From the NCBI RefSeq assembly GCF_001488575.1, contig NZ_LN831303.1:124001-188000 (forward strand): 64,000 nucleotides of DNA. The letters are read 5' to 3'. Position 1 is the stretch's first letter, and each line of letters begins with the position of its first letter. Positions 5,532-64,000 of this stretch are shown here, in pieces. This DNA is from Halobacterium hubeiense (lineage in GTDB: Archaea > Halobacteriota > Halobacteria > Halobacteriales > Halobacteriaceae). Below the pieces are notes generated by a model. It had not been told where the DNA came from, did not search any database, and saw only the letters and a list, made by a program, of their open reading frames with translations. The position numbers were made by a program, and so were the translations under genes.

Positions 5532-5631
5532 ATAGGCCCACATGGAACAGAGGGAACAATAAACCCACCGACCACCCACCTCCGTTGTTTCCTCTGAAAC
5601 TATGGCATATAAACAACTCTGATTTTAGCAA

Positions 5632-5656
5632 CCCCATCACTTCCGCTGTTCTCTAG
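5632..5656. promoter_or_regulatory. Fourth ORB-like box upstream of orc1/cdc6
   Basis: CCCCATCACTTCCGCTGTTC matches the boxes at 4005 and 4062 apart from a few changes and has the same orientation. It lies about 100 bp upstream of the initiator gene and 16 bp from the distal end of CRISPR array 1. It could serve origin function or autoregulation of orc1/cdc6. Confidence 0.6.
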
Positions 5657-5671
5657 GCTCCCCATATCTCT

Positions 5672-8600
5672 GCTTCAACCGCACTAGCGTTCTTCTGTAA
5701 CACGGCCAGGTCCCCGAGGGCACGCAGGATGCTCGTGCCTTCAACCGCACAAGGGTACGTCTGAAACAACAGCGTCGCGAGGATACTCTCCGTCAGCCCG
5801 CCGCTTCAATCCCACGAGGGTACGTCTGAAACCAGCTGAAAATCAACCAATAACGGACCAATATCGCCCGCTTCAATCCCACGAGGGTACGTCTGAAACT
5901 GCTATCGCCATCCTCCGGCAGGCCGCGCTCCAGGCTGCTTCAATCCCACGAGGGTACGTCTGAAACGTCTACTGTCTCGTGGTCCGGTCGACGACCTGGA
6001 AGCTTCAATCCCACGAGGGTACGTCTGAAACCCAGTTCAACGGCGGTGAGTTCGCCGACGCCCTGCTTCAATCCCACGAGGGTACGTCTGAAACACTCCG
6101 CAACCACGTCTTCGGATACGTCTACGCGGCTTCAATCCCACGAGGGTACGTCTGAAACGAGCAACCACTAATGGCGTGACTGCGGCTATCCAGCTTCAAT
6201 CCCACGAGGGTACGTCTGAAACCGTATATGCGGCATACGTAACGTTATTCTCTTGAAGCTTCAATCCCACGAGGGTACGTCTGAAACTGTTATATTCTCG
6301 GATCTTCGTTTGCCTGTTGTTATTGCTTCAATCCCACGAGGGTACGTCTGAAACTGTTGGATGGAATTGGTGTGAAGGTCGTTCACGTTACGCTTCAATC
6401 CCACGAGGGTACGTCTGAAACCGTAACTAGCCTGAACGACGCGCTAGAGTTCCCGCAGCTTCAATCCCACGAGGGTACGTCTGAAACTGTTGACGCGGTG
6501 GCGGGCAACCATGTTCACCATAAGCTTCAATCCCACGAGGGTACGTCTGAAACTCCGGCGAGTCGGACAACCCCGTTGAGGATGGTCGGCTTCAATCCCA
6601 CGAGGGTACGTCTGAAACCGGCGGTTCCGGCGCGTTCACGTACGCCGGCCCGAAGCTTCAATCCCACGAGGGTACGTCTGAAACGCTCGTCGGTCGGACC
6701 GAGGCAGGTCGGGCAACGCGCTTCAATCCCACGAGGGTACGTCTGAAACCGGACTGTTGTCGCTCCACAATACTTCGTTCTGGTCGCTTCAATCCCACGA
6801 GGGTACGTCTGAAACCCGAACGCCGTCCCATACAGTAGTTGTCTCTGACGCTTCAATCCCACGAGGGTACGTCTGAAACGGCGACCCCGACCGCTGCTGG
6901 ATAGACAACCACAAGCTTCAATCCCACGAGGGTACGTCTGAAACAAACCGGGAACGTGTACGTCTTACTCGGTTCGCTGCGCTTCAATCCCACGAGGGTA
7001 CGTCTGAAACCGGCGTTTCCCGACTCCTATCGAGATCGCCAACGTGGCTTCAATCCCACGAGGGTACGTCTGAAACTCGTCCTGGTTGTACTGCTGGCCG
7101 GCGTAGACGAAGCTTCAATCCCACGAGGGTACGTCTGAAACACTACCAGCACTGCCAGCACTGCCAAACCCTCAACGCTTCAATCCCACGAGGGTACGTC
7201 TGAAACCCACGCACCACCGACTCCTCTTCGAGATAATCCGGCTTCAATCCCACGAGGGTACGTCTGAAACCACTATGACCGACGACAACACCATCACGTG
7301 GCCGGCTTCAATCCCACGAGGGTACGTCTGAAACTCCCCGAGGTGCCGGCGTAGCCGTTCGCGCTCGTCGCTTCAATCCCACGAGGGTACGTCTGAAACG
7401 ATGATACTGAAGTCGCACCGCCGATGGTTCGGTCTGCTTCAATCCCACGAGGGTACGTCTGAAACAGCGTCTGCAACATCTGTCGCGCCGACCATCTCGC
7501 CGCTTCAATCCCACGAGGGTACGTCTGAAACTCTCTTCTTCAGGCACTGGCCTCACCTCCGGCATCAGCTTCAATCCCACGAGGGTACGTCTGAAACACG
7601 TCCTCGCTGTCGAGGTCCTGCGCCTCGAGGACGCTTCAATCCCACGAGGGTACGTCTGAAACCGACGTGTACTTCCCGGAAGAGGCGCAGGCGCAGGCTT
7701 CAATCCCACGAGGGTACGTCTGAAACACGGGTTTGGACTGCCGGGTTAACAGAGATATTGGCGCTTCAATCCCACGAGGGTACGTCTGAAACCTTGGGTG
7801 TGGTAGGTGCGTGCGCTTGAGTTTGACGTGCTTCAATCCCACGAGGGTACGTCTGAAACGAGGTTCTCGGCGACGTCGACACGCTTTGCGCCGAGCTTCA
7901 ATCCCACGAGGGTACGTCTGAAACCCGGCTCCGACCGCCCGAGGTGGACTTTCACAAGGAGCTTCAATCCCACGAGGGTACGTCTGAAACGTGCGTTAGC
8001 GCCGAAGCCGTCGGTATACCCAACGGCTTCAATCCCACGAGGGTACGTCTGAAACGAGCGCCAGCTACGCCAGCCACAACAGCCACGTCAGGCTTCAATC
8101 CCACGAGGGTACGTCTGAAACGAGGCATGACGGTCAACGTCTCAAGCGAGGAGACGCTTCAATCCCACGAGGGTACGTCTGAAACCCGAGCATGGTCCGC
8201 TCTACGAGGACGGCGACCCGCGCTTCAATCCCACGAGGGTACGTCTGAAACCGTGCGTTAGCGCCGAAGCCGTCGGTATACCCAACGGCTTCAATCCCAC
8301 GAGGGTACGTCTGAAACCGCCAGCAACACCGCCAGCAGCATCGGGTCGAGCGTGCTTCAATCCCACGAGGGTACGTCTGAAACGACGTGGTCGGGTTCGT
8401 CCGGGTGCGGCCAGCAGCGCTTCAATCCCACGAGGGTACGTCTGAAACAGGGTCGCTTTACCTGACTGGCTCGGTGCCGCAGGCTTCAATCCCACGAGGG
8501 TACGTCTGAAACTCCCTGTTCCTGTTGGTCGTGTCAGGCCGCCCAACCGCTTCAATCCCACGAGGGTACGTCTGAAACTACACCGTTGAGGGGTTCCCTG

Positions 8601-8972
8601 AACTCTCCCCGCAGCTTCAATCCCACGAGGGTACGTCTGAAACACTTCGCTATCTTCGGCGACCCCGGTCTGAACAAATGCTTCAATCCCACGAGGGTAC
8701 GTCTGAAACCGACTGGATGGCCTCCCAGAGCGCCATCAACGTGATGCTTCAATCCCACGAGGGTACGTCTGAAACGAGGAACTCGTCGCGCCCGTAGATG
8801 TACACGACGCGCTTCAATCCCACGAGGGTACGTCTGAAACATGACGCTCTGGGACGACAGATTGCTCGAATGGGCGGCTTCAATCCCACGAGGGTACGTC
8901 TGAAACCGGCACGAACTCGACGGTTCACGTCTTCTACATCCCGCTTCAATCCCACGAGGGTACGTCTGAAAC
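5672..8972 (-). CRISPR. CRISPR array 1: 51 repeats, about 50 spacers
   Basis: There are 49 identical 30-bp repeats (first at 5803, last at 8943). On the minus strand each begins GTTTCAGACGTACC and ends GGGATTGAAGC. A chimeric repeat (5738-5767) and an array 2-type repeat (5672-5701) sit at the left end. Spacers are about 34-40 bp. By comparison with Haloferax type I-B repeats, whose crRNA 5' handle is ATTGAAGC, transcription runs leftward. This fits a leader at 8973-9073 next to cas2 and degenerate repeats at the far left. One spacer occurs twice (7991-8025 and 8252-8287). Confidence 0.97.
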
Positions 8973-9073
8973 CATGGTGATTTTGCCCACCATATCACCT
9001 CTACCAGTGGTATACACTTCATCATTTCCGTCGACCCGCAATCCCCCCAAAACCCCCGGGGGGTCGACATCAG
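8973..9073 (-). promoter_or_regulatory. CRISPR array 1 leader
   Basis: This 101-bp segment between the cas2 stop and the first repeat reads, on the minus strand, GTCGACCCCCCGGGGG, then GGGTCGACGGAAATGATGAA, then a GTGTATACC box about 45 bp before the repeat. Its order of blocks matches the segment upstream of array 3 (19640-19739). That supports its identity as a leader carrying both the promoter and the integration signals read by Cas1-Cas2. Confidence 0.85.
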
Positions 9074-9334
9074 CTAGAGGAACCGACTATCCTCGGTCGG
9101 GTCGTCCCCGTACACGGTACGGTTCAATAGCCGGTCCGAAGAGAGTTCGTAGACCATGACTGATTCTCCCTTCTGAAGGAGATCTTCAATTTCCCCCTTC
9201 AGTGTCGCTAGATCTCCCTCCGAGATTTCCCCTTCCAGTACTGAGTTCTGGACGTGAACAAGGTATCGGCGACAGAGCTTCAGCATCAGGTGGGTCCTGT
9301 CAGCCTCCATGTCGTAGACGACGATGACGTACAT
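9074..9334 (-). CDS. cas2: CRISPR-associated endonuclease Cas2
   Basis: An 86-residue protein with the ferredoxin-like Cas2 opening MYVIVVYDMEADR, including the conserved Asp after beta-1, and the internal VQNSVLEGEIS stretch. Cas2 dimers bridge two Cas1 dimers in the spacer-integration complex. It is the last gene of the operon, 1 bp from cas1, and faces the array leader. Length and motif are normal for the family. Confidence 0.96.
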   Translation of the reverse strand: MYVIVVYDMEADRTHLMLKLCRRYLVHVQNSVLEGEISEGDLATLKGEIEDLLQKGESVMVYELSSDRLLNRTVYGDDPTEDSRFL

Positions 9335-10327
9335 CTACCACCACCGCTTGAACGAATCATAGGATTCGCCGGTTAACAAGTGCTTTTTGAGCTTGTATAC
9401 CTCCAAGCGAAGCAGATACTGATAGCTCACCTTCCGGTTCAGCGTCGGGTGCTCGACTGTTCGCTCGAGTGTCTCCTCAAACTCCTTCAGAAACGTCGTT
9501 CGCCCTTCCTCGTTAAGTAGACAGGAGCCAACCTCGTCTCGGAAATCGTCTCGGCTGATCTGCTTACGGTTGACCAGTCTAAACAGCAGCCGATCCGTTA
9601 ACACTGGTTTGAACAGGTCGGCAATATCCAGCGAAAGGGAGTAGCGCCGTTCTCCCGGCTCGTGGAGATAGCTGATGGTCGGGTCAAGTGCGGTAGCACG
9701 GATTGCGGAGACACAGTTTGCGTACACCATACTGTTCCCGAACGAAATGAGCGCGTTCACCGGATTCGGTGGTGGATTGTACTCTCGGCCGTCGAACGCG
9801 AACGAGTCGGGAAGAACCGCCTCGAACGTCTGGTAGTACGCTCTCCGGGCCGTCGCTTCCACACCCATGAGCTCGGAGATATCGCCAGCGTCGTCGATAC
9901 GCGCAGTCGCGTTGTCCAACTCCTCGATTACGCCCCCGAGCTCGTACTCCCGACTGTCGTAGTACGTGACGTTCGTCCGCATGTTGTGGATACTCCCACG
10001 GACGAACGAGGCAGCGAGAGACTGCCGTTGCTCGGGATCGTCGTACGCCCGGACCTGCTCGACGACAGTTCGACCGCTCGTCTGCCCGCGTTCGGGCATC
10101 AGTGACCCTGCATAGCGATCGTTCCAGCCGAAGACATGGATAGCAACGCCGTGGTCATTGAGAAACGACATCAGCCGCGTGTTGTAGTCGATCTGTCCGT
10201 GCAGATAGATCGCCTCAGCGTGTTCGACGGGGATATGTTTTTTCTCGCCATTATCGGTCTCCAGCCGAACTGTATCCTCGCTCCGTTCGATGCGGCCGTC
10301 CGAAAAGATGTGGTAGTTCTTGTCCAT
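9335..10327 (-). CDS. cas1: CRISPR-associated integrase Cas1 (type I-B)
   Basis: About 330 residues from MDKNYHIFSDGRIER. The N-terminal beta domain is followed by the helical catalytic domain, with the metal ligands Glu in GVEATARR (near 154), His in YLHEPGERR (near 221) and the acidic residue in SLDIADLFKP (near 235). Together with Cas2 it integrates spacers next to the leader. An upstream in-frame Met at 10360 would overlap cas4; the start at 10327, just after the cas4 stop, is favoured by spacing. Confidence 0.96.
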   Translation of the reverse strand: MDKNYHIFSDGRIERSEDTVRLETDNGEKKHIPVEHAEAIYLHGQIDYNTRLMSFLNDHGVAIHVFGWNDRYAGSLMPERGQTSGRTVVEQVRAYDDPEQRQSLAASFVRGSIHNMRTNVTYYDSREYELGGVIEELDNATARIDDAGDISELMGVEATARRAYYQTFEAVLPDSFAFDGREYNPPPNPVNALISFGNSMVYANCVSAIRATALDPTISYLHEPGERRYSLSLDIADLFKPVLTDRLLFRLVNRKQISRDDFRDEVGSCLLNEEGRTTFLKEFEETLERTVEHPTLNRKVSYQYLLRLEVYKLKKHLLTGESYDSFKRWW

Positions 10328-10329
10328 AA

Positions 10330-10875
10330 TCAGACCCAACAGAAGTCGTGATAGGCACACGACTCGCAGTACGGTTTCTCAGTGGCTTCCGGCGGACTGT
10401 CCGCGGTCACGATCGCGTGAATCCCTCGGATTGCCGACTCGACTTTGTCGCATCGGTCGTCGTCGAGGGAAACGCCCTCCCGTCGACGCTCAGTCGGGTG
10501 TGCCAACACGCCCTCACGTTCGACGCCTAATACCCGATCGAGGTACCAGAGGTAGTACGAGAGCTGCATTCGCGCTGGCTCTGTCAACGTCGATGAGGGT
10601 TTTACCTCCACCACTCGACCGTCTTCAAGTAGGTCGAGAGCGATCATCCCGAGTCGAAGGTTCTCCTGTGAACGTTCGCCGTAGGAGGACTCATCGACGC
10701 GGGTCCCTCGGGCAACGCTTGCGTTCTCCCGGTTGATCTCGATGTTCCGGCTCTCGAACCAGAGCTCGCGTTCACAGACGTAGTAGTACTGCATCATCAC
10801 GCCAGTGACGCGAAACGGGTTGTCGACGGCGTCGCCCTGTGCCGTGGCCACCAGCCGAGAGACGGGATCGCTCAC
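10330..10875 (-). CDS. cas4: CRISPR-associated exonuclease Cas4
   Basis: A 181-residue RecB-like nuclease. Cys34 (YYVCERELWF) and Cys170, Cys173, Cys179 (YCESCAYHDFC) form the iron-sulfur ligand set. The active-site motif VVEVKP follows an acidic residue after GMIALD. Cas4 trims prespacers and helps select those with a correct PAM. The start overlaps the cas3 stop by 4 bp (translational coupling). Confidence 0.95.
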   Translation of the reverse strand: MSDPVSRLVATAQGDAVDNPFRVTGVMMQYYYVCERELWFESRNIEINRENASVARGTRVDESSYGERSQENLRLGMIALDLLEDGRVVEVKPSSTLTEPARMQLSYYLWYLDRVLGVEREGVLAHPTERRREGVSLDDDRCDKVESAIRGIHAIVTADSPPEATEKPYCESCAYHDFCWV

Positions 10876-13556
10876 AGTAGACGTGCCTCCACGCTCGTGT
10901 CAGGGATGACGACGCCGTCGGTGGCGTCGAAGTAGCCGTCATGCCGTCCCGGGCGCCCGTCGAGCACCAGCCGGTCGGTGTCGGGGAACAGCGGCTCGCA
11001 TGCAGCGAGCTTCTCCATCGTGTCGTCGTCGCCGGGGTAGACGGGGACGGAGACCTGCCAGTCCGCGGTCGACTCGACGAGGTCGTCCAGGTCGTCCCAC
11101 CGGTACTCGCCGAACGCTCGCCGGATCTCTTCGACGGTCTCGCGCTCATCGGCCGTTCTCGTCACGATCACGTCGACGGCGGGCCGCTCGTCGATGAGCG
11201 AGAGTCGCCCGAGCTGTTCGGCTTCTGCCCGCTCGAGGTACTCCACGTACTCGTCGGCACCGATGTCACGCCTATCGAGCAGGTCGAAGTAGTGTTCGAC
11301 GGCGTTTCGAGTAACGTCTGGCTCGGGCATCGGGTCACCGTCGTAGACCGTTGCCAGCGCTTGGCCAGTCAATTTGGTGAGGCTCTCTCCTCGACCGTAG
11401 ACCGCGCTTGCGGGCGTTGTCTCGCGGTTCGGCGGCGGCGCGAGCTGCCAGACTGTCACGCGCCCACGGTTGCGGTCGTATGACCGGTTACATCGACCCG
11501 CAGCCTGCACGAGGCTGTCCATCGGCGCGAAATCACGGATGACCTCGTCGAAGCTCACGTCGACGCCCGCCTCGACCAGCTGGGTGGAGACGAACAACAC
11601 TGGTTCACCCGCTTCGGCGAGGTCGGACGCCACGTCGATGAGGTGGCGTCGGTCACACGGCCGGTGGCGTGTCGTGAGGTGGACCAACAGCGGCTGCCCC
11701 GGTCGTCGTCGACGGACTGCATCGGCAAGCGTCCGCTCGGAGCGTATCGATTTGGTCGATCGGTCCGCGGCGGTGAGCAGTTCGTCGTACACCTCGTTGA
11801 TGTCCAGCGGTGCCGTTCTGTCGTCCACCGACTCGGCGAGCTCGCGCGCGCTGTCGATTGTGTTGCAGATCGCCAACACCGATTTACGGTCGTCGGCCCG
11901 GTTCGCGACGAGTTCGCCGGCTCGATCGTAGGGGAGTGCTGCTGACTCCGCGTCGTCGTTCATCTCACCCCCTGTCTCGTTCTGCCCGGGAAGCATCGCG
12001 ATCGCGGACGGGTGAAGCACGAAGTCGAGCCGGTCCAGCTCGTCGTAGTACGGATCAGGATCCGCGACAAGGGAGAACGGCTCTTGGTCGCCCGCAGACA
12101 GGAGTTCGGGCTGGGTGGCCGTCATGGCGATCACCGATGCACCGTACTCCTCGGTCAACAGTTCGACCAGTCGGTCCACGAGCGGCCACCACTCGAGCGG
12201 CAGCGCCTGCGGTTCGTCGAGAACTATCACGCTCCCGTACAGCGAGGGGAGCTTCATCGAGCGTGCGTTTGTCGGCCCGGCCAGACTCTCGAACAGCTGG
12301 ACGAACGTCGTCACGACCATCCCCGACCGCCAGCTCTCGCCGAGGAGGGCGGCGACGTTCTCGACGGCGTCGTCGGCGACTGATTCGGGCTCGCCCGGCG
12401 GCGAGACGAGGGTATCCGCGAGGTGGTGGTCGACGGTGAGCCGTTCGCCTCTGTCGTCGGTCTCGAACAGTTCGCGGCTCTGCTCGGCCACCTGGTCGAT
12501 GATGGACGTGTACGGCAGCGCGTAGACGAGACGTCCCCCGTTCGGGTTCGACGCCATCTCACTCTCCTCGAGCACGGTTAAGGCGGCGTCCAGTCCAGTG
12601 AGGGTCTTCCCCATGCCCGTCGGGAGCGTCAGCGTCGCGACGTTCCGGTCGTCGTCGACGAACTCTTTGGCGCGAGTGTGAACTGCCTGTCGAGCGTCCT
12701 CGCGCCGCTCGTTCATCTGTTCCGTTCGGGGGTCCAGCTCTGTCTCAGCGTTCGCAGTCTGGAGTTCGTCGATGTAGTTGTCGATCGCCCGCCGCTCGGG
12801 GATCGGCGATCGGTAGGCCTCGCGGCCGATTTCGACACCAGTCGACAGGTACGTCGCGCTCGCCTTGTCGGCGAAGACGAGCGCGCTCCAGACCTGCAGC
12901 ACTGATTCGTAGAACCCTGACGGGAGCTTCTCCGGTGCCGGGCGAAGTCGCCGGCCACTACAGACGGCTTCCGCCACCCACGGGAGCTCGATAGCTGTAT
13001 CTGACTCGTCGAGCCGTTCGTGAAACGTTTCCCAGTCGCCACCGCTATTGGTCGCTTGGTCGACGAGTATCTCGGCAAGTTCAGGAACGGTCTCGTTAAG
13101 GTGTGCTGCCTGTTCGAGCGCATCAGATCGATAGAGCGTCTGGACCCGTCCTGACTGCTCGACGCTCGCCCGGTGCACGTAGTCGGCCGTATCGGGGAGG
13201 CGTCCGTGGTGTCTCGCGACGGCTAGAAAGCCGACGAGAGGATCGGCACCGTCGAACCCGCGTGCCTCCAGCGCGTAGTGAGCAAGCAGCGCCGAGATCG
13301 GCGCGTGATGTTTCGGTCCGTCCGGTTGTGCGTCGTCCGAGAGGAGGTGTTCGCGGAACCAAGAAGTCAGCTTCCCGAAATCGTGGACTTGCGCCACCAC
13401 TCCTGCCAACTCAGCAAGCGAGTTCCCCGCCGGCGTCTCGGCGTCGTCGGGGACGAGCCATCCGACCCGCTCGCGGATGTCGTCGAGATGCTTTTCGAGC
13501 GGGATCTGTTCCCCATTCGGTCCGATGTGTGACGGTCGGTCGGTAAACTCGGCCAT
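10872..13556 (-). CDS. cas3: Cas3 HD nuclease-helicase
   Basis: An 894-residue protein with the HD nuclease domain first (KHL near residue 23, VHDFGK at 57-62, HHAPISALLAHY), followed by a superfamily 2 helicase. Walker A is LPTGMGKT (near 312), the DEAD-like box is VLDEPQALP (near 445), motif III is MTATQPE and motif VI is QAAGRCNR. Cas3 is recruited by Cascade bound to a target and degrades the DNA. Fused HD-helicase order and length are normal for haloarchaeal I-B. Confidence 0.97.
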   Translation of the reverse strand: MAEFTDRPSHIGPNGEQIPLEKHLDDIRERVGWLVPDDAETPAGNSLAELAGVVAQVHDFGKLTSWFREHLLSDDAQPDGPKHHAPISALLAHYALEARGFDGADPLVGFLAVARHHGRLPDTADYVHRASVEQSGRVQTLYRSDALEQAAHLNETVPELAEILVDQATNSGGDWETFHERLDESDTAIELPWVAEAVCSGRRLRPAPEKLPSGFYESVLQVWSALVFADKASATYLSTGVEIGREAYRSPIPERRAIDNYIDELQTANAETELDPRTEQMNERREDARQAVHTRAKEFVDDDRNVATLTLPTGMGKTLTGLDAALTVLEESEMASNPNGGRLVYALPYTSIIDQVAEQSRELFETDDRGERLTVDHHLADTLVSPPGEPESVADDAVENVAALLGESWRSGMVVTTFVQLFESLAGPTNARSMKLPSLYGSVIVLDEPQALPLEWWPLVDRLVELLTEEYGASVIAMTATQPELLSAGDQEPFSLVADPDPYYDELDRLDFVLHPSAIAMLPGQNETGGEMNDDAESAALPYDRAGELVANRADDRKSVLAICNTIDSARELAESVDDRTAPLDINEVYDELLTAADRSTKSIRSERTLADAVRRRRPGQPLLVHLTTRHRPCDRRHLIDVASDLAEAGEPVLFVSTQLVEAGVDVSFDEVIRDFAPMDSLVQAAGRCNRSYDRNRGRVTVWQLAPPPNRETTPASAVYGRGESLTKLTGQALATVYDGDPMPEPDVTRNAVEHYFDLLDRRDIGADEYVEYLERAEAEQLGRLSLIDERPAVDVIVTRTADERETVEEIRRAFGEYRWDDLDDLVESTADWQVSVPVYPGDDDTMEKLAACEPLFPDTDRLVLDGRPGRHDGYFDATDGVVIPDTSVEARLL

Positions 13557-13575
13557 GGCTACGCCCCCTCGCGGC

Positions 13576-14370
13576 TCACGAGAACATCACCCGTCTGCCG
13601 TCGACCTCGTGGGTCTCGACGTCCTGCACCCGGAGTGGCTCCGCCCCGGTTGCGTACGCGACCGACTGGAACGCCGTCGTCGTCCGGCCCCCCTCGTCGG
13701 CCGCCATGAACGCCGGCGAGCGTTCGACTTTGACCTCCGTCTCAGGGGTGAGTTCGACGCTGTCGACTGCCTCGAGCACTGCCGAATCGACGTCGGTCGT
13801 CTCGCGCTCACGCGGCGTTACCTCGAACTCACCGAGATACGTGACTTCCGCGAGATGCTCCGAGAGGCCGAGACTCGGCGGGTAGTAGGACGTCCCGTCG
13901 CGGAGCCGGTCCTGTAGTCGATCCCGGAGATCGTCGTTCGCCAGCCGGAGATCCACGCGGTAGGCCGGCTCGACGAGCACCTCGTAGTTGTGTTGTTGGC
14001 GGAGCTCCGACGGATCAGGCATCGAGATCCGTGCATGCCCGCGGCTGGGCATCGTCATCATGTGTTCCTTGGCCGTCGAGAGCGTGTTCATCGGCATGTT
14101 GATCGTGCGGAGCTCGGCGATCGGCTCCACCGCGACCGCCGACACGTCCTGACCGAACGCTTCGTAGTAGCTGTCGCGGTCCAGCCCGAGCATCGCGGCG
14201 ACGAGGCCGGCGAGGGTCGTCCGGGGGATGATCCGATAGGTCTGTTTGACGATGTTCCCTTCGACCCGTCGGAAGTGACCCCACTCCCCGCGGAGTTCGA
14301 AGGAGAGACACGTCTCCGGGAGCTGGTCGTCCTCGTCGGTCCAGCTCTCGAGTGACTCTTGGGCCATCAC
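13576..14370 (-). CDS. cas5: Cascade subunit Cas5 (type I-B)
   Basis: A 264-residue RAMP protein. The N-terminal region has the Cas5 pattern SFELRGEWGHFRR, followed by TYRIIPRTTLAGLVAAMLGL. Cas5 caps the 5' handle of the crRNA and contacts Cas8b and Cas7. The gene overlaps the cas7 stop by a few bases and ends 19 bp before cas3. Two consecutive Met codons open the frame; the second would give nearly the same protein. Confidence 0.94.
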   Translation of the reverse strand: MMAQESLESWTDEDDQLPETCLSFELRGEWGHFRRVEGNIVKQTYRIIPRTTLAGLVAAMLGLDRDSYYEAFGQDVSAVAVEPIAELRTINMPMNTLSTAKEHMMTMPSRGHARISMPDPSELRQQHNYEVLVEPAYRVDLRLANDDLRDRLQDRLRDGTSYYPPSLGLSEHLAEVTYLGEFEVTPRERETTDVDSAVLEAVDSVELTPETEVKVERSPAFMAADEGGRTTTAFQSVAYATGAEPLRVQDVETHEVDGRRVMFS

Positions 14371-15485
14371 TCGGGCATCGTCGCAGCGGCTTCGTCGTAG
14401 ACGTCGACGACCTCGACCGCGTCGCCGACAGCCTCGCGGAGCGCGTCGTAGAAGCCGTGTTCGCCGGCCTCGTCGCCTGCCGTGTAGACCTCGTCGCCGA
14501 CGGTCACGTCGAGCACGTCGCTGGCGACGACACGAACGCGGGCGATACGGTCGGCGTGGCGGCCCAGCCGGGAGATGAGATCGCTCCCGTCGAGCGTGAA
14601 CTCCCGGACGTTCCGGAGTTCGTCGACAGGGGCCGAGCGCTCTTCGTCGATGTCGAGGTCACGGGTGAGGCCACCGAGATGGAAGCTCTCGTCTTCGTAC
14701 TCCACACGGAGGTAGAGTCGTGGCTCTTGGCCGACCTTGCTCCGGCTGATGGTCTGGTTCTTGATCGCGCGCCACGGGAGGGTGTCGAGGCGCTCCACGT
14801 CCGCCTCGGAGAGCTTCGTGTCGGCGGCACCGTTCTCGTCGACCAATCCGTGGAACGCGATGAAGCCGTACTGGATTCGGTGGTCGTCGAGGTCGAACCC
14901 ACCCTGCTCTTTCCCCTCACCAGTCGCGATGACGCTCGTGAGACTGTTGTACTCCTCGTTCTCCGTTACGGGATGGAGCGTCTTCGCGGGCGAGAACTGG
15001 ACCGGCCCGGTGAAGTGGTCCGGAAGGTAGTCTTCGAACCCCTCGTAGTTCCCCTTCATGTCGACACTCATCGTCGCACCGAAATACCGCACGTCGGCGC
15101 TTGCGTCGAGGAACGTGCCGAACACTTCCTCGCGGAGCTCGGCTGCCTCATCGTCGTCCAGATCGCTGAGGTCCCAGTCGTCCGGGTCTAGTTCACGCAT
15201 CCGGTCGGCGAGGAGGTCCTCCCGCGAGGACTGCTTGCCCGCCTCGTTTTTCACGTTCCGGACGTAGACCCCATGGCCGTCGTCGTCGAGCTGGTCGCGA
15301 AGGTAACGCTTCAGCCGGACGTCCGTCACGATTGCTTGTTGGGTTTCGGGATCGATTCGCGGGCGGTTCGCCCCACTCAGAGGGTTGCCGTTGGGGTTGG
15401 CGTCGACGGCGTCGTAGCAGAAGACGATCTCGGATCGGTTCGTCACGGGGTCGTAGCTGTCGTCAGCGTATGTGTCGTCAGTCAT
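14367..15485 (-). CDS. cas7: Cascade backbone Cas7 (Csh2)
   Basis: 372 residues. It begins with a strand typical of the Csh2 family (RSEIVFCYDAVDANPNGNP) and contains the characteristic RPRIDPETQQAIVTDVRLKR segment. Multiple copies polymerise along the crRNA spacer. It overlaps cas8b and cas5 by 4 bp each, so the operon is tightly coupled. The C-terminal tail is acidic, as expected for a halophile. Confidence 0.95.
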   Translation of the reverse strand: MTDDTYADDSYDPVTNRSEIVFCYDAVDANPNGNPLSGANRPRIDPETQQAIVTDVRLKRYLRDQLDDDGHGVYVRNVKNEAGKQSSREDLLADRMRELDPDDWDLSDLDDDEAAELREEVFGTFLDASADVRYFGATMSVDMKGNYEGFEDYLPDHFTGPVQFSPAKTLHPVTENEEYNSLTSVIATGEGKEQGGFDLDDHRIQYGFIAFHGLVDENGAADTKLSEADVERLDTLPWRAIKNQTISRSKVGQEPRLYLRVEYEDESFHLGGLTRDLDIDEERSAPVDELRNVREFTLDGSDLISRLGRHADRIARVRVVASDVLDVTVGDEVYTAGDEAGEHGFYDALREAVGDAVEVVDVYDEAAATMPE

Positions 15486-17629
15486 GCTTCTTCCTCCGCA
15501 GTTTCGGGCTGGTCGTCGGCCTGTTCGTCGTCGCTGCTCGCCCAGTTGTTCATTCCGTAGGCGACTCCGAGCGAGTAGTAGAATCGGAGATCGGTCGTGT
15601 CGAGCTCCCAGTCGCCGTCGATGTCGATCTGGGGGAGCGTCGTCACCAGCCGATCGACGACCTCGCGGTACATTGTCCCCGCCATGTTGTTCTCCCGGGA
15701 GTAGACGACGTTCTTATCGAGCACGTCGCTCGCGAGACGCTTTAGCTTCGACTCCGTGACGGCCTTGATCGGGTACTGGTCGATGAGCGTCGTCGAGCGT
15801 CCCTCGCTCACCTGCTGGTAGCCGGTCACTTGGCCGACCAGTACGCCGAGGAGGAAACTGCCACGCCGTTCGGGCTGATCCGCCGCGAGAGCGGGTGTCT
15901 GTTCAAGGAACTGTTCGAGCTTCGTCTCCCGGGCCGCGGCGACGTTCCCGCCGTCGGCTCGGGCTGGTGTGTCCTGTTGCATATCGTCTGTATGATCGTG
16001 TGTCAACTGCCGCGGCTCTGCGACCGGTTCGTACGCGTCGCGTCCGGTGAGAAGCCCCGCTTCGGCGAGCGCACAGAGCTGTGCGTACTGTGCGGAGACA
16101 CGGAAGCTCGGGAACTCCTCGCCCTCGTCCTCGAGCAATCGTTCCACGTACTCTGTGAGCACCTTCTCGACATCGAGCGGCTCGCTCGAGAGTACAGCCA
16201 CGAGCGCACGGATTCGGTAGTCGTCGGCGCTTGCGTCGTCGTCATCGGCCGGCGCGAACGTCTGTTCGAAGTACCAGCCAGTTGCAAGGATGCTCAGCAA
16301 TGCCGACTCCTCCGGAACGAAGATGTCCCAGTTGTCCGGTGTCGGGAACGCGGCTCGAAGCCCCGGATCGGGGTGGTCGACGTCACCTTCCGCGTCGTAC
16401 AGCCACGACCGAAGTACCCGCTGGTGGGCTCTGGTGAGCTCGACGGGTGAGAACAGCGTTCCGTCCATGCTGTCGCCGAACACGTCGAAGCGCTTCGTCT
16501 GGTGTTCCATCACCGCGGCGACGTAGAACCGGAAGCGTTCTCCCGCTTCCTGCAGTCGCGGGGTGTCCTGATAGCTTCGATAGGCGCTCTCGAGCGGACT
16601 CATCTCTCCGGCGTGTACCAGGTCGTAGAGAAGTCCGTAGAGGTCCCTCGCGTCTGCCGGATCGAGCCGCCCGAAGAAGTACGGAAGGTAGTAGATGTTC
16701 GCTCCCATCGTGTAGTAGTCGCAGGCGTCGACGAACGTACTCGCGTTCATCAGCGTCACTGCAACGTCTTCCGAGACTGGGTGCGTCCGCCATGCCTCGT
16801 CCGGATCGAACCCGGGGAATTTCTCGAGCTGCTTGCCGAGGAAGTAGTTCAGCGGATCTTCAGCCGTCCCGACGGTCGGGCCTCGGCTACCGGTCACGAG
16901 ATCGGTCGCCTCACCCACGGAGTTCGTGGCTTCACCCTTTGAGACGAGCTTCGATCGCTTGCGCGCCCGCATTGCTTCGTTGAACACCGAACTCGCCTCA
17001 CCCGGGAGGAGATACTCACCGTCAGAATCGAGTTTGACTGCGACAGTCGTGAGCGCCGTGGTCTTCCCGTCGAGCTGTTCGTCGACGGCCGTCTCGATGC
17101 GCTCTCTAAGCCCCTCACTCTCGCCGAGTGCAGCGAGTGCGTCGACGATCCACCTGTCTTCGTGATCGGCGGCAGCCTCTTGGATCACGTCGTCGGCAGC
17201 CCACGAAGTGAGTCGCTCGTGGAGATACTCCGCGACCTTTTCGGGCTCTTTGCTCTTGCCCGTTCGGTGGGTGACGCTATGGTCGAACCCACGCGCGGAG
17301 TCGTACCACGAGTGGGCAACCGCCTCGACTTTCCCCTTACCGTAGCTCTCGACGCCGACTGGCTGGTCAGGGTCCAAGCGGGGCTCGTTCCCACTCAGAT
17401 CGATGCGGAGATAGAGTAGGCTCTCCGGTTCATCGAACAGGTCCGTGGATTTCTCCGGCGTCAGGTAGGCCGCGTATTCGCCACCCCCCGCGGTCGCAAG
17501 CGTGTACAGACGGCCGTAGACGTACTGGAGGTCGCGGAGTGAGGTGATCGGCCGGTCCGGGAGTTCACTTGCCAGTTCCTCGTCGTCATAGTCATTCTCG
17601 AACGTCGACGGCTCCGGGAGCAGGCTCAT
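15482..17629 (-). CDS. cas8b: Cascade large subunit Cas8b (Csh1)
   Basis: A 715-residue protein in the fixed position between cas6 and cas7 of haloarchaeal I-B operons. Family-like features are the N-terminal LRDLQYVYGRLYTLATAGGGEYAAY block and a C-terminal YYSLGVAYGMNNWASS segment. Cas8b recognises the PAM and helps unwind the target. No zinc finger is obvious. Assignment rests on position, length and the overall pattern rather than on a catalytic motif. Confidence 0.92.
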   Translation of the reverse strand: MSLLPEPSTFENDYDDEELASELPDRPITSLRDLQYVYGRLYTLATAGGGEYAAYLTPEKSTDLFDEPESLLYLRIDLSGNEPRLDPDQPVGVESYGKGKVEAVAHSWYDSARGFDHSVTHRTGKSKEPEKVAEYLHERLTSWAADDVIQEAAADHEDRWIVDALAALGESEGLRERIETAVDEQLDGKTTALTTVAVKLDSDGEYLLPGEASSVFNEAMRARKRSKLVSKGEATNSVGEATDLVTGSRGPTVGTAEDPLNYFLGKQLEKFPGFDPDEAWRTHPVSEDVAVTLMNASTFVDACDYYTMGANIYYLPYFFGRLDPADARDLYGLLYDLVHAGEMSPLESAYRSYQDTPRLQEAGERFRFYVAAVMEHQTKRFDVFGDSMDGTLFSPVELTRAHQRVLRSWLYDAEGDVDHPDPGLRAAFPTPDNWDIFVPEESALLSILATGWYFEQTFAPADDDDASADDYRIRALVAVLSSEPLDVEKVLTEYVERLLEDEGEEFPSFRVSAQYAQLCALAEAGLLTGRDAYEPVAEPRQLTHDHTDDMQQDTPARADGGNVAAARETKLEQFLEQTPALAADQPERRGSFLLGVLVGQVTGYQQVSEGRSTTLIDQYPIKAVTESKLKRLASDVLDKNVVYSRENNMAGTMYREVVDRLVTTLPQIDIDGDWELDTTDLRFYYSLGVAYGMNNWASSDDEQADDQPETAEEEA

Positions 17630-18432
17630 CCATGGACCTCCGCCGCTGGTTTGCCGTACGGGTTGCGCTTTTCGACCAGGTTACAGAATCCCAGCCCCAG
17701 CGCGTTTCGTTCCCCGAGCCCGCAGTCCAGTGCGAGGTTGAGGTGGCGTCGATGGTCGTCGTCTCGGACGGTATAGTCGAACTGCCACTTCGAGAGTACG
17801 AAGGTCAGCTCCTGATCTGCGGTCACTTGGAGCGGGACGGCGAACGTCTTCAGTAGCTCGTACCCCTCGAAGAGATCACCCTCAGTGTCGCTTGGGCCCG
17901 GAAGGTAGTCCGGGCTGAATAGATCGTGTTTCTGGTCGAGATTCGCCTCGAGCTGCTCTCGCAGTGGCTCGATTGTATGTTCTGGCTGCCAATACACCGC
18001 CTCTTCGCCGGGGTTCTCAATTCCATAATCGTCACAACGCCATGGTGGGATGCGCACGAGGAGTCCAGTGCCAGTCTCGATCGTCCCGCTGCTCCCAGGT
18101 TCGCCGACATCCGGTGACAGTGACGTGAGTTCGTCGATATGGAACGGCATCTGGCCGATATTGAGCTCGCGATCGGCGGTCAGGTCTTCTGCAACATCGG
18201 CCAGTAATTGCTCTTGCGGGGCCGAAATCAGCAGAGTTCGCTCGTCTCCTTCCTGCATATCTCCCGGCGGGAAGGGGTTACTGTAATTGAATCCCGGTGG
18301 GCGGTTTTCGTCATGATACTGTTCGTACTCCGTGCCCTGCAACGCTTGCCAGATCCTACCTCGGAGCTTGGGGTGATACGCGTTGTCGTATGCGGTATCA
18401 GCCCGCGCGTGTAACCGTACTAGTAATCTCAC
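17626..18432 (-). CDS. cas6: crRNA-processing endoribonuclease Cas6
   Basis: 268 residues from a GTG start (MRLLVRLHARADTAYDNAYH). The C-terminal glycine-rich loop CGLGERNALGLGFCN is the RNA-binding signature of Cas6 RAMP proteins, and a His in the N-terminal third (near EYEQYHDEN) is a candidate catalytic residue by analogy with Haloferax Cas6. It should cut both repeat families to leave 8-nt handles. First gene of the operon; a TATA-like CCTAAATCG lies about 20 bp upstream of the start. Confidence 0.93.
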   Translation of the reverse strand: MRLLVRLHARADTAYDNAYHPKLRGRIWQALQGTEYEQYHDENRPPGFNYSNPFPPGDMQEGDERTLLISAPQEQLLADVAEDLTADRELNIGQMPFHIDELTSLSPDVGEPGSSGTIETGTGLLVRIPPWRCDDYGIENPGEEAVYWQPEHTIEPLREQLEANLDQKHDLFSPDYLPGPSDTEGDLFEGYELLKTFAVPLQVTADQELTFVLSKWQFDYTVRDDDHRRHLNLALDCGLGERNALGLGFCNLVEKRNPYGKPAAEVHG

Positions 18433-18502
18433 AGTGTTATGTCGATTTAGGTATCGATCCTATGGTAGTTATTCTTTTCCCCTGATGAGAAGTACATGCC
18501 AG

Positions 18503-18905
18503 CACCCACCTCACCGAAGTTCATCTGAAACTTGTGACGGTGTTGGCACCATACTGGTAACTTCAACCGCAGTTGCGTTCATCTGATACAGATTGGGTGC
18601 CTCGTCAAGCCACAACCATCATGAGTGCTGGGAGTATACTCACCTATCGCAGCAGTTTCCGTATGGTGCTTACATGCCTAGGGCCCGGAGTAGATACCAG
18701 GAATATCTACTCCCCTGAGGCAAGCATCATATTATTGGCTTCATCAACAGCCTATTTCCCCGCTGTCAACTTAGTTCTTTCTACCAATATGGCATAACTG
18801 CACACCCCTTCACCCTCACAAGGGCACGTCTGAAATGCGGTCTCGATCATTTCTCGCAGCTTGAGGAGGTCTCGTAGCTTCAACCACATGCCGGTGCGTC
18901 TGAAA
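18503..18905 (-). CRISPR. Decayed CRISPR remnant upstream of cas6
   Basis: Four degenerate repeat copies are visible at about 18503-18532 (ends TTCATCTGAAAC), 18561-18590 (CTTCAACCGCAGTTGCGTTC), 18806-18835 (CACAAGGGCACGTCTGAAAT) and 18876-18905 (ends GTGCGTCTGAAAC). Two are separated by spacer-sized gaps of 28 and 40 bp. The copies mix features of the array 1 and array 2 repeats. Orientation matches array 1. No leader is recognisable to the right, so it is probably silent. Confidence 0.65.
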
Positions 18906-19361
18906 CGTACCCGACGGGCGTTCGATTCGACAGCTGTCACGGGAAGTGGATTCTGTCAGTGTCTGTGTAGCGGTGACATAAACGTCAACGCCGGTTGGTA
19001 TCGACGTATTGAGACGGTGATCGGGGAGTATTAACCAATGGATTGGGGCACTGTTCAGATTAGAGTTGAAGGATGAGGCGGCCAAATTTCTGAGTTCTCT
19101 ATCCTCGAAATCAGCCGCCCAGCGGAGATAGCGACTGCTTCGAGCTAGAGTTTGTGGATCGAGAAGCGACATCGAACTGGGCGAGAGAACGGCTACGCAC
19201 TGCTCTGGCGTTCCATGATCAGGCTAGGGTTCCCGGCAGTAGAGTGAAAAAGGAGAGTCTAGGAACCTCCTCGGAGCCACGATCTGCTGCTCAGATACCA
19301 TCCGGAAATTCCCCTGTTGGTCGTCTTCTCTGACCGGTATCGGATCTCTATTTCCGCTCCC
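18906..19361. other. Gene-poor spacer between CRISPR remnant and MITE C
   Basis: No convincing gene. A minus-strand frame starting at 19172 opens with a plausible sequence (SLLDPQTLARSSRYLRWAAD) but runs into the decayed CRISPR repeats, so it is either a truncated remnant or chance. I see no promoter that clearly serves it. Confidence 0.4.
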
Positions 19362-19739: not shown

Positions 19740-19970
19740 GTTACATCAGAACGCTAGTGCGGTTGAAGCGTCGGATTGGTCTCGACCTCGACCGCGAACG
19801 GCGGCTCGTTACATCAGAACGCTAGTGCGGTTGAAGCCAGATTGGCGACCCCGTGATGGACGCCGCGCAAGGCCGTTACATCAGAACGCTAGTGCGGTTG
19901 AAGCCCCCGCCAGCGCCATCGCCGCTCCCGTCTCCGGGTAGTTACATCAGAACGCTAGTGCGGTTGAAGT
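19740..19970 (+). CRISPR. CRISPR array 3: four repeats, three spacers
   Basis: Repeats lie at 19740-19769, 19808-19837, 19875-19904 and 19941-19970, and spacers are 38, 37 and 36 bp. The repeat begins GTTACATCAGAACGC and ends GCGGTTGAAGC. It differs from the array 2 repeat by one base (CATC for CAGC), and the last copy ends in T. Transcription is rightward, opposite to arrays 1 and 2. The cas operon therefore has an array on each side, as in several haloarchaea. Confidence 0.93.
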
Positions 19971-48441: not shown

Positions 48442-48749
48442 ATGGTTGACCTTGATGAACTGGATTACTCGCGGCTTGAAAGTGCGGAGACTATCCGTCT
48501 TTAGCTAAACGTATAATCACAAGACGGTATCGGGGTCGACGTGGGGGCCAATTTGCCGGGTGTTGAGATTGATTTGGGAGACTAAGCGGTTCTCGTGAGG
48601 ATTCATTGATCTGCCAGAACGGCGTTCACTCGGCTCTGTCGGCTTAGCTAAAGACGAATGGTGCGGAGACGTACCTCATCAAGTTGGTGACGCCGTTCGT
48701 GTTGAACGGTTTGCCTGCAAGGTTCAACCGCACTAGCGTTCTACTGTAA
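48442..48749 (+). pseudogene. Gene fragment split by a MITE and ended by a CRISPR repeat
   Basis: The reading frame VDLDELDYSRLESAET is interrupted at 48491 and resumes after 48670 as YLIKLVTPFVLNGLPA. It then runs directly into a CRISPR repeat of the array 2 family, whose final TAA closes the frame. Removing the 169-bp insertion plus one copy of the 10-bp duplication restores one frame. The protein is not recognisable from this fragment. Confidence 0.6.
48492..48660. mobile_element. 169-bp MITE with 10-bp target duplication
   Basis: Terminal inverted repeats CGTCTTTAGCTAA (13 bp perfect, about 17 bp with mismatches) bound the element. The direct repeat GTGCGGAGAC flanks it at 48482-48491 and 48661-48670. 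It is unrelated to the CAGTNGTTG family. The 10-bp duplication points to a different transposase, not present in this window. Confidence 0.85.
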
Positions 48750-48750
48750 C
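48721..48750 (-). CRISPR. Solitary CRISPR repeat of the array 2 family
   Basis: 29 of 30 positions match the repeat variant seen at 54494-54655 (with GTTCTACTGTAAC). There is no second repeat at spacer distance and no leader. It sits at the junction between a gene fragment and the 48856 gene. Confidence 0.85.
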
Positions 48751-54427: not shown

Positions 54428-54655
54428 GCTTCAACCGCACTAGCGTTCTGCTGTAACCCGCCGCGTGAAGTCCACCAGCCATGCCCACTCACCACTTCAA
54501 CCGCACTAGCGTTCTACTGTAACGACGGCGGCCTGAAACGACGACGCCCACGAGACGCGCTTCAACCGCACTAGCGTTCTACTGTAACGCCGCCTACAAG
54601 CTACCCATTCGGAACAGCCACGCAGGCTTCAACCGCACTAGCGTTCTACTGTAAC
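54428..54655 (-). CRISPR. Orphan mini-array: four array 2-type repeats, three spacers
   Basis: Repeats lie at 54428-54457, 54494-54523, 54559-54588 and 54626-54655. Three carry GTTCTACTGTAAC and the leftmost GTTCTGCTGTAAC. Spacers are about 35-37 bp. Orientation is that of array 2. No sequence resembling the leaders at 8973 or 19640 lies on the right, where an unrelated gene begins at 54681, so the array is probably a displaced distal fragment that cannot acquire spacers. Confidence 0.92.
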
Positions 54656-61155: not shown

Positions 61156-64000
61156 TCTGCAACCGCTCTAGCGTTCTGCTGTAACCCAGCAACCGCCGCC
61201 CCCCAGCCCGTCACAGCATCCGCTTCAACCGCACTAGCGTTCTGCTGTAACGGTGCTGGAAGTGGGCGAGCGTGCGGACCTCGGGCTTCAACCGCACTAG
61301 CGTTCTGCTGTAACTGCCGCCGGCCGCTCAGGCCGCGAATACGGGTTCGGGCTTCAACCGCACTAGCGTTCTGCTGTAACGTGACTCCCCATGCGAGTTC
61401 TGCGCGCGAACGCGGCTTCAACCGCACTAGCGTTCTGCTGTAACACAGTTGCCTGCTTGTCGGCGCTGTCCCACCCGCGGCTTCAACCGCACTAGCGTTC
61501 TGCTGTAACGGTCGCGGTCGCCCGCAGCCTCGAAGTTCGGGGCGCTTCAACCGCACTAGCGTTCTGCTGTAACAACTGCTGGATGTGCTGCCTATCATCC
61601 CCGAATATGCTTCAACCGCACTAGCGTTCTGCTGTAACTGCCAGCGGGCGCCGTTGCGGCTTTCGAGGTCCGCTCTTCAACCGCACTAGCGTTCTGCTGT
61701 AACTAACGCGAATCATAACCCGCGTAGGGTCATAATCGCTTCAACCGCACTAGCGTTCTGCTGTAACTCGATCTGGTGTGCTTCGCCGTCGACGAGCTGA
61801 TAGCTTCAACCGCACTAGCGTTCTGCTGTAACCGCGCCGGAGAGATCTGCCACAGCTCCGAATCCTGGGTGCTTCAACCGCACTAGCGTTCTGCTGTAAC
61901 ACGTCGTTCTCGTTCCGCGAGCTGGACGCGGCTGCAGCTTCAACCGCACTAGCGTTCTGCTGTAACGCGGCGAACTCCGGCAGCTCCGTAGACTCACTCT
62001 CGCTTCAACCGCACTAGCGTTCTGCTGTAACGCTCCTCGAGTTCATTCAATGCGCGGTAAAGGGTAGCTTCAACCGCACTAGCGTTCTGCTGTAACGCCA
62101 CGACCGAGCCCCTTAGTCCTACCTTCGGAGAAGCTTCAACCGCACTAGCGTTCTGCTGTAACACGCCGATGGTTTCCGGCTTCGCAGGCAGGTACTTGCT
62201 TCAACCGCACTAGCGTTCTGCTGTAACGGCTGATTATAGCCGGATGTTTTTAGTCGGTACAGGCTTCAACCGCACTAGCGTTCTGCTGTAACTGCGGTTC
62301 TCCTGGGCGTCGCTCGACCGTAGCCATGCTTCAACCGCACTAGCGTTCTGCTGTAACCTTCGATTTCGTTTTCCCCATCGTCTGCCGTAACGCGCTTCAA
62401 CCGCACTAGCGTTCTGCTGTAACACGCGCCGGACTGAGGACGGCGCGCATCATCGCGGCGCTTCAACCGCACTAGCGTTCTGCTGTAACACCGCCATCGA
62501 GCCTGCCCTTGAGCGCGTATACCTCGCTTCAACCGCACTAGCGTTCTGCTGTAACGAGGCGAGGCAGTGGTTCTCGGACTTCAACCTCATCCCGCTTCAA
62601 CCGCACTAGCGTTCTGCTGTAACCGCCGGACGTCCAGATCGCGCCGGATGGCGTCCTCCCGCTTCAACCGCACTAGCGTTCTGCTGTAACGCGATGGCCT
62701 TCGAGACGGTCGGCCCCGACCTCCCGCTTCAACCGCACTAGCGTTCTGCTGTAACCGCGGACACGCCGCAATATACCTCCGACGTCATCGCTTCAACCGC
62801 ACTAGCGTTCTGCTGTAACTCGACGCGCCCCAGCTCCGCGCGTCGGGCGAGGGCTACGCTTCAACCGCACTAGCGTTCTGCTGTAACAAGGGGTGTCCGC
62901 GTATACGGTTAGGTAGAGGTTGCTTCAACCGCACTAGCGTTCTGCTGTAACGAGTTGCTGGTACTCCGATTTCACCTGTTGCTTCCGGCTTCAACCGCAC
63001 TAGCGTTCTGCTGTAACTACAGTCCGTTTCACCGATACCATTCACGTTCGACCGCTTCAACCGCACTAGCGTTCTGCTGTAACGACGTCGAGCAGCGCAT
63101 GAGCCAGCTCGGCGACGCGCTTCAACCGCACTAGCGTTCTGCTGTAACTGATTTGGGAACTCCAATACTCTGAGAGCGTTGGGTTGCTTCAACCGCACTA
63201 GCGTTCTGCTGTAACCTCTGGTAGAGCGCCGAGTGGATATTCGAGGAGTCGCTTCAACCGCACTAGCGTTCTGCTGTAACGCCCACGGAACTCAACACGC
63301 GTCCCACGCATCTCCTGCTTCAACCGCACTAGCGTTCTGCTGTAACAGGGGCCGCTGCGCGTGTCCAGCGGGCAGGTCCTGCTTCAACCGCACTAGCGTT
63401 CTGCTGTAACGAGTCTCCCTCCCACGCCTCGCGAGCCGCCCGGAGCGTCCCCGGGCCGCTTCAACCGCACTAGCGTTCTGCTGTAACCTCGCGGTCGACA
63501 TCGAGGACGGCGTGATTCCCGCTTCAACCGCACTAGCGTTCTGCTGTAACTACCCTCGTCAGTGTCCACAACACCCGACCAGCCGTTGCTTCAACCGCAC
63601 TAGCGTTCTGCTGTAACGTGGGCACGGTGACGTCGACGTCGCCCCGGCCGAACCGCTTCAACCGCACTAGCGTTCTGCTGTAACTTCGCCGCGACCCATT
63701 CGGCTTGTAGTAGGTCGCGGCTTCAACCGCACTAGCGTTCTGCTGTAACCGGGCGTCGTCTCCTACGCGCTCAGTCACACGGGCTTCAACCGCACTAGCG
63801 TTCTGCTGTAACAGTTCAAGCGACGGTTGCCCGGAGTCGTTCGGTTCCGTGCTTCAACCGCACTAGCGTTCTGCTGTAACGAGACGGTCTTCGTCACCGC
63901 GTCACCGCCCGCGCGCTGCTTCAACCGCACTAGCGTTCTGCTGTAACCACAACGACTCCCTCACGAACGCCAGCCTCGGATAGGCTTCAACCGCACTAGC
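61156..64000 (-). CRISPR. CRISPR array 2: 44 repeats visible, continues beyond the window
   Basis: 30-bp repeats (on the minus strand GTTACAGCAGAACGC...GCGGTTGAAGC) run from 61156 to the window edge; the last is cut at 64000. The leftmost repeat (61156-61185) is degenerate, and the copy at 61674 has one changed base, which marks the left side as the old, leader-distal end. The handle GTTGAAGC implies leftward transcription from a leader beyond 64000. Spacers are about 34-38 bp. The repeat differs from array 1 but is close to array 3, so one Cas6 probably handles all. Confidence 0.97.

Follow-up and report, generated by a model that had tools for sequence, protein, structure and literature searches.

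Organization of array 1 and its leader-distal end

The question raised by this locus of Halobacterium hubeiense is how a CRISPR array whose body consists of identical repeats came to end in a repeat of another family. The window analysed here is a stretch of 64,000 nucleotides of contig C2 (349,522 bases), and array 1 occupies positions 5672–8972 on its minus strand. The array comprises 51 repeats, 49 of which (from R3 onward) are exact copies of the canonical A1 repeat, GTTTCAGACGTACCCTCGTGGGATTGAAGC as transcribed; the two remaining ones, R2 and R1, are aberrant and stand at the leader-distal end. Transcription starts from the leader at about 8973 and, as the leader is on this side, position 5672 is the oldest end of the array. 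The coordinates and the order of the repeats at this end, as given in a preliminary description of the window, were correct on re-examination. The features considered are collected in Table 1.

Table 1. Features of array 1, its cas operon and the B-type repeats of the window.
Feature	Position	Strand	Basis or remark
ORB-like repeat of orc1/cdc6 origin, adjoining the distal end of array 1	5631..5661	.	homology to other Halobacterium origins ends at ~5655
R1, terminal (oldest) repeat, B family	5672..5701	-	GTTACAGAAGAACGCTAGTGCGGTTGAAGC; 1 mismatch to B, 7 to A1; 0/2000 simulations
Spacer R1-R2, 36 nt	5702..5737	-	normal length for array 1 (33-37); present in 1/391 class genomes, its own
R2, aberrant A1-type repeat	5738..5767	-	GTTTCAGACGTACCCTTGTGCGGTTGAAGG; repeat comparison
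Spacer R2-R3 (R3, first canonical repeat), 35 nt	5768..5802	-	array parsing
Canonical A1 repeats (n=49) and spacers	5803..8972	-	exact repeat matches
A1-type leader, far end approximate	8973..9075	-	homology; common to Halorubrum and other A1-type loci
Type I-B cas operon, A1 type: cas1, cas4, cas3, cas5, cas7, cas8b, cas6	9335..18432	-	PADLOC
Orphan B-type array, 4 repeats, variant GTTACATCAG... (TCA at 7-9), B-type leader upstream	19740..19970	+	repeat and leader comparison
Solitary B-type repeat	48721..48750	-	repeat comparison
Orphan B-type mini-array, 4 repeats	54428..54655	-	repeat comparison
Large orphan B-type array, 58 repeats, extending past the window end to ~C2:188927	61156..64000	-	repeat comparison

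The cas2 gene was placed between cas1 and the leader on the basis of position. The spacing of the distal end is that of a true array, the 36 nt that separate R1 from R2 being the commonest spacer length in array 1 (21/50). Beyond R1 the flank enters a plasmid origin and, compared by eye, has no likeness to the trailers of the other B-type arrays shown. Three other Halobacterium genomes have this origin in common up to about 5655, with no CRISPR there. A motif, GTTTCAGAGGAAAC, near 5588–5601 was considered as a further repeat and rejected, since it lies about 100 nt out, within the origin segment common to other Halobacterium. The spacer between R1 and R2 had no match in any other of the 391 genomes of the class, neither of the two distal spacers had a second copy in the compared stretches, and the stretch containing both gave no match in 50,697 phage records. 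In the body of the array, the spacers at 7991–8025 and 8252–8287 are near-duplicates offset by one base, which suggests either that one site was sampled twice or that part of the array was duplicated internally.

The terminal repeat is of the B family

The B consensus is GTTACAGCAGAACGCTAGTGCGGTTGAAGC, and a distance of one or two letters from it was taken to place R1 in the B family. R1 matches it at 29/30 letters and differs from A1 at seven, three of them within the first 12. When random versions of A1 with seven substitutions were generated, 0/2000 came as near as R1 to any other known canonical repeat, and the candidate explanation of R1 as a decayed A1 repeat was rejected on this basis. 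By repeat comparison, then, R1 is of B type and foreign to the A1 array. It had been described as a pure array 2-type repeat; the type was confirmed and the purity was not, because R1 is one letter off the B consensus and the 61156 array, and two of 30 letters off the 19740 array. In addition, R1, array 2 and array 3 differ from each other at nucleotides 7–9, so that R1 is not a fresh copy of either array.

The same replicon carries B-type arrays of four repeats at 19740, four at 54428 and 58 from 61156, together with a lone repeat at 48721, and 67 near-B pattern matches were obtained in the whole genome, R1 and 66 others. These arrays persist in the absence of B-type cas1 and cas3: a genome search for the two genes detected one copy of each, in both cases of A1 type, the cas3 being 45% identical to its B-type counterpart. 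As the sole cas1 and cas3 are A1-type, the B arrays are orphans here, no cognate B-type operon being found in this genome-wide search for the two genes. The 61156 array has a B-type leader, related to yet distinct from that of A1, and its crRNAs, if made, would rely on the A1-type Cas6.

Near-B repeats were identified in only 4/391 genomes of the class: that of H. hubeiense, those of two further Halobacterium (G011, and G003 with one hit), and a more distant one (G130), in which a variant occurs. R1 therefore bears the mark of a lineage. Genome G011, whose name we infer to be Halobacterium noricense, contains a complete I-B cas operon of B type, flanked by two B arrays, with Cas proteins 42–70% identical to those of our genome and a repeat one mismatch from R1. 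Whereas G011 has its own B-type operon, only orphan arrays and R1 are found here.

The A1 module is common to several genera

Membership of the A1 module was defined by a repeat near GTTTCAGACGTACCCT[C/T]GTGGGGTTGAAGC, the common leader and adjacent I-B cas genes; R3–R51 and their locus belong to it and R1 does not. Eight loci (L032 and L093–L099) were retrieved together with the flank upstream; their DNA is 87–92% identical to that of the module over about 9.5–9.8 kb, from the leader side up to a point between 18479 and 18850. In L100 and L101 the identity is about 80%. The Cas1 proteins of Halorubrum sp. Atlit-26R and H. amylolyticum are 99% identical to the one encoded here. Judged by these alignments, the module is mobile and common to several genera. 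With a mobile module on one side and a terminal repeat local to Halobacterium on the other, the joining of the module onto a resident array is favoured.

In its cas operon type, leader, repeat and creTA-like arrangement upstream of cas6, the locus is like the Halorubrum/Halobonum-type I-B locus with CreTA of H. hubeiense that is treated in the available text of PMC8501985. In contrast to array 1, no compared relative has a B repeat at its end, and no repeat within four letters of B was present in eleven relative stretches (L032 and L093–L102). The transition between the two families was found neither in the A1-type relatives compared nor in the three other Halobacterium, which have no CRISPR at the origin.

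Upstream of cas6 there is a CreTA-like module consisting of psiR1 (18560–18589), a psi-spacer (18532–18559) and psiR2 (18502–18531). A target at 18779–18792, flanked by TTC, matches nucleotides 1–5 and 7–11 of the psi-spacer, the only mismatch being at nucleotide 6. According to the available text of PMC8501985, which already includes the creTA of H. hubeiense, CreTA (a type VIII toxin-antitoxin) has two degenerate repeats around a psi-spacer whose nucleotides 1–5 and 7–11 match a TTC-flanked promoter site; the elements at 18502–18589 and 18779–18792 agree with this in sequence and are predicted to form a toxin-antitoxin. The CreTA-like module is kept in several A1-type relatives. Two decayed repeats farther upstream (18807–18836 and 18877–18906) are probably what is left of an array still intact at this site in Halobonum (L032, 51–273). 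A remnant at 18950–19010 is reminiscent, by eye, of the end of a TnpB-type transposon protein that carries the zinc finger.

The penultimate repeat

R2 had been presented as a chimera of a B-like left half and an A1-like right half. It differs from A1 at four letters and from B at seven. Of the four changes, G23 occurs in the canonical repeat of 12/12 A1-type arrays of other genomes (L029–L034, L047, L057, L058, L106, L108 and L109) and T17 in 4/12, so these two are ordinary A1-type letters. C21 is the B letter, the sole B-diagnostic one with respect to the ancestral A1 form, GTTTCAGACGTACCCTTGTGGGGTTGAAGC, and G30 is private; thus one or two of the four changes count as B-diagnostic, according to which A1 ancestor is assumed. 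If the ancestral form is given two random changes, one or more of them yields a B letter with P=0.15, and the corresponding value against the present A1 is P=0.039, both values assuming equal substitution odds and being uncorrected over 59 tests. A left/right chimera was therefore not demonstrated. The best reading of R2 is an old repeat of A1 type that has undergone two private substitutions, G21C and C30G. Origin by point mutation from one family, which the preliminary description had named as its own refutation, is for these reasons as likely as a chimera, or likelier, in the case of R2, but R1 cannot be explained in this way.

It is possible that R2 is chimeric nevertheless, and we hold this for a sharper form of the array join rather than for an exclusive alternative, although on balance we doubt it. 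An A1/B crossover would have occurred between nucleotides 17 and 21 of R2, leaving A1 sequence on the leader side and B sequence on the distal side, with a later change at position 30. The geometry fits, as the B-like side faces R1, with one B letter on the distal side and A1 letters on the other. Furthermore, nucleotides 14 and 21 form a matching pair in 60/61 canonical repeats, and R2 has a mismatched version of it, combining C14, from A1, with C21, from B. However, this is a single diagnostic letter, and the one exception among the 61, the standard repeat of G110 (GTTTCAGACGAACCCTTGTGCGGTTGAAG, 39 copies), has the same C14/C21 core, which indicates that such a state arises without an A1/B junction; an R2-like core pattern was matched in 5/391 genomes of the class, our own included. 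In addition, no parental arrays with the spacers that flank R2, as a crossover-chimeric repeat calls for, were found in the compared stretches. A crossover between nucleotides 17 and 21 is not needed to account for R2. In the array of G110 (L102) that lies upstream of cas6, the distal repeats alternate between C21/G21 and C14/G14 forms.

Survey of haloarchaeal array ends

The survey comprised 88 downstream stretches and 13 hand-picked loci, some of which had been chosen for their odd ends (L029, L034, L039 and L069). Arrays with fewer than 8 repeats, with weak likeness to A1 or B, or running off the stretch were dropped; 95 arrays were kept and 87 used, 86 after removal of one duplicate. Among 4008 interior repeat-to-repeat steps, 3928 were unchanged and 9 had at least four changes, some interior steps of 10–12 changes looking like register errors. 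Steps with at least four changes were 4/84 at the second-last position, and 26/85 last steps had at least six, a count that is inflated because some arrays finish in a unit that is not a true repeat. Terminal repeats decay often, and landing on another family is rare.

A loose filter for a terminal repeat of another family was passed by 6/86 arrays: array 1, G376 (L191) and G214 (L181) make convincing cases, L034 a fair one, and L127 and L189 match poorly. In the three convincing cases the terminal repeat is of another natural family at normal spacing, as expected for an array overwritten by a second family. The array of G376 ends in GTTTCAGAAGTACCAAGCTGGTGTTGAAGC, the sole copy there and exactly the standard repeat of its congeners G413 and G418; the repeat next to it is slightly changed and has no foreign letters. 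In G214, 13 nt of one repeat (GTTCGAGACGCAC) are fused to 29 nt of another (TTCCAGCCGGACCGTAGACGGGTTGAAGC), followed by a second foreign repeat, and these were the only two detected at the sensitivity used. The fused repeat (near 5058–5100 of L181, on the reversed strand) is out of register and is an evident array junction. Both cases are like array 1 in that a long array of one family carries one or two terminal repeats of another; they differ from it in the families and genera involved, in the out-of-register fusion of G214 and in the undamaged foreign repeat of G376. Degenerate leader-distal repeats, as described in the available text of PMC4869251, also involve change at the oldest end, and R2 could be one of them; R1, in contrast, shows no decay and is an almost perfect repeat of a different family. 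Word searches of the open-access literature for chimeric, hybrid or mosaic arrays returned nothing on point.

Origin of the hybrid array

Taken together, array 1 is rather probably a composite, in which a mobile A1-type I-B module was joined to the distal remnant of a resident B-type array of Halobacterium. The incoming module (cas6-8b-7-5-3-4-1-2, leader and leader-proximal array) would have arrived and recombined in or beside a CRISPR repeat, and R1, perhaps with the spacer beside it, would be what is left of the older array. Later growth would have copied the A1 repeat only, at the leader end, which would explain why the foreign R1 sits at the very bottom. What we infer here is the join, its direction and a crossover point near R2. 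The nearness of R1 to B, the narrow distribution of near-B repeats, the full B-type operon of G011 set beside the A1-only cas1 and cas3 of our genome, the wide distribution of the A1 module, whose relatives have no near-B repeat, and the parallels in G376 and G214 all favour it. Against it, the pre-join state was seen in no strain, the R1-R2 spacer is absent from the other genomes of the 391 and from the rest of the compared stretches, the flank past R1 is unlike the other B-array trailers shown, R1 is no fresh copy of array 2 or 3, and in G376 the neighbour of the foreign repeat lacks foreign letters.

The preliminary description had left open whether the array end was a fossil of recombination or of gradual replacement. 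That two families meet here was borne out, the join being the best explanation. In gradual replacement, which we consider improbable, a B-type array would have had its leader-proximal repeat mutated stepwise to A1 and copied, the intermediates being deleted later. Stepwise series do exist in other arrays (L039, L191 and L138) and R2 is intermediate in distance, but here 49 identical repeats are followed by steps of four and then six changes, of a size seldom seen in the interior of arrays. Moreover, the A1 repeat, leader and cas genes are common to several genera, so A1 did not originate inside array 1. An accidental neighbour, that is, a lone B repeat beside an A1 array, or two arrays wrongly joined in assembly, would have a precedent in the lone B repeat of the same replicon; both are quite unlikely, given the ordinary spacer between R1 and R2 and a contig of 349 kb that is continuous into the conserved origin. 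Least of all do we believe that R1 and R2 are both mutated A1 repeats. Terminal decay is frequent in general and R2 alone fits it well, but the agreement of R1 with B was reproduced in no simulation, which refutes decay for this repeat.

Array 1 should be regarded as an evolutionary scar rather than as a working device. It is a genuine and fairly uncommon fossil of CRISPR succession, for which the claim of a hybrid array is stronger than that of a chimeric repeat.

Processing and significance

In the available text of PMC9458426, haloarchaeal Cas6 binds repeat nucleotides 1–12, the last eight form the crRNA handle, nucleotides 11–15 and 18–22 anchor spacer insertion, and the authors surmise that repeat hairpins are of no importance. 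Compared with these positions, R2 retains the A1 Cas6 site and has its second insertion anchor altered, while the three changes of R1 among the first 12 letters lie within the stretch that Cas6 binds.

More speculatively, a resident array may offer a landing pad to a rival CRISPR-Cas module. The arriving locus would recombine within a repeat or next to it and gain control through its own leader and cas genes, and one or two repeats of the losing array would stay at the trailer end as a stratigraphic trace, R2 being the crossover repeat itself. It is customary to trim trailer ends as decay. Intact older repeats, if preserved there, would be a record of the prior CRISPR-Cas occupant of a site and of system replacement between genera, which three examples in 86 arrays make testable on public genomes. 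The presence of two repeat families under one Cas6 would also be a natural test of Cas6 tolerance.
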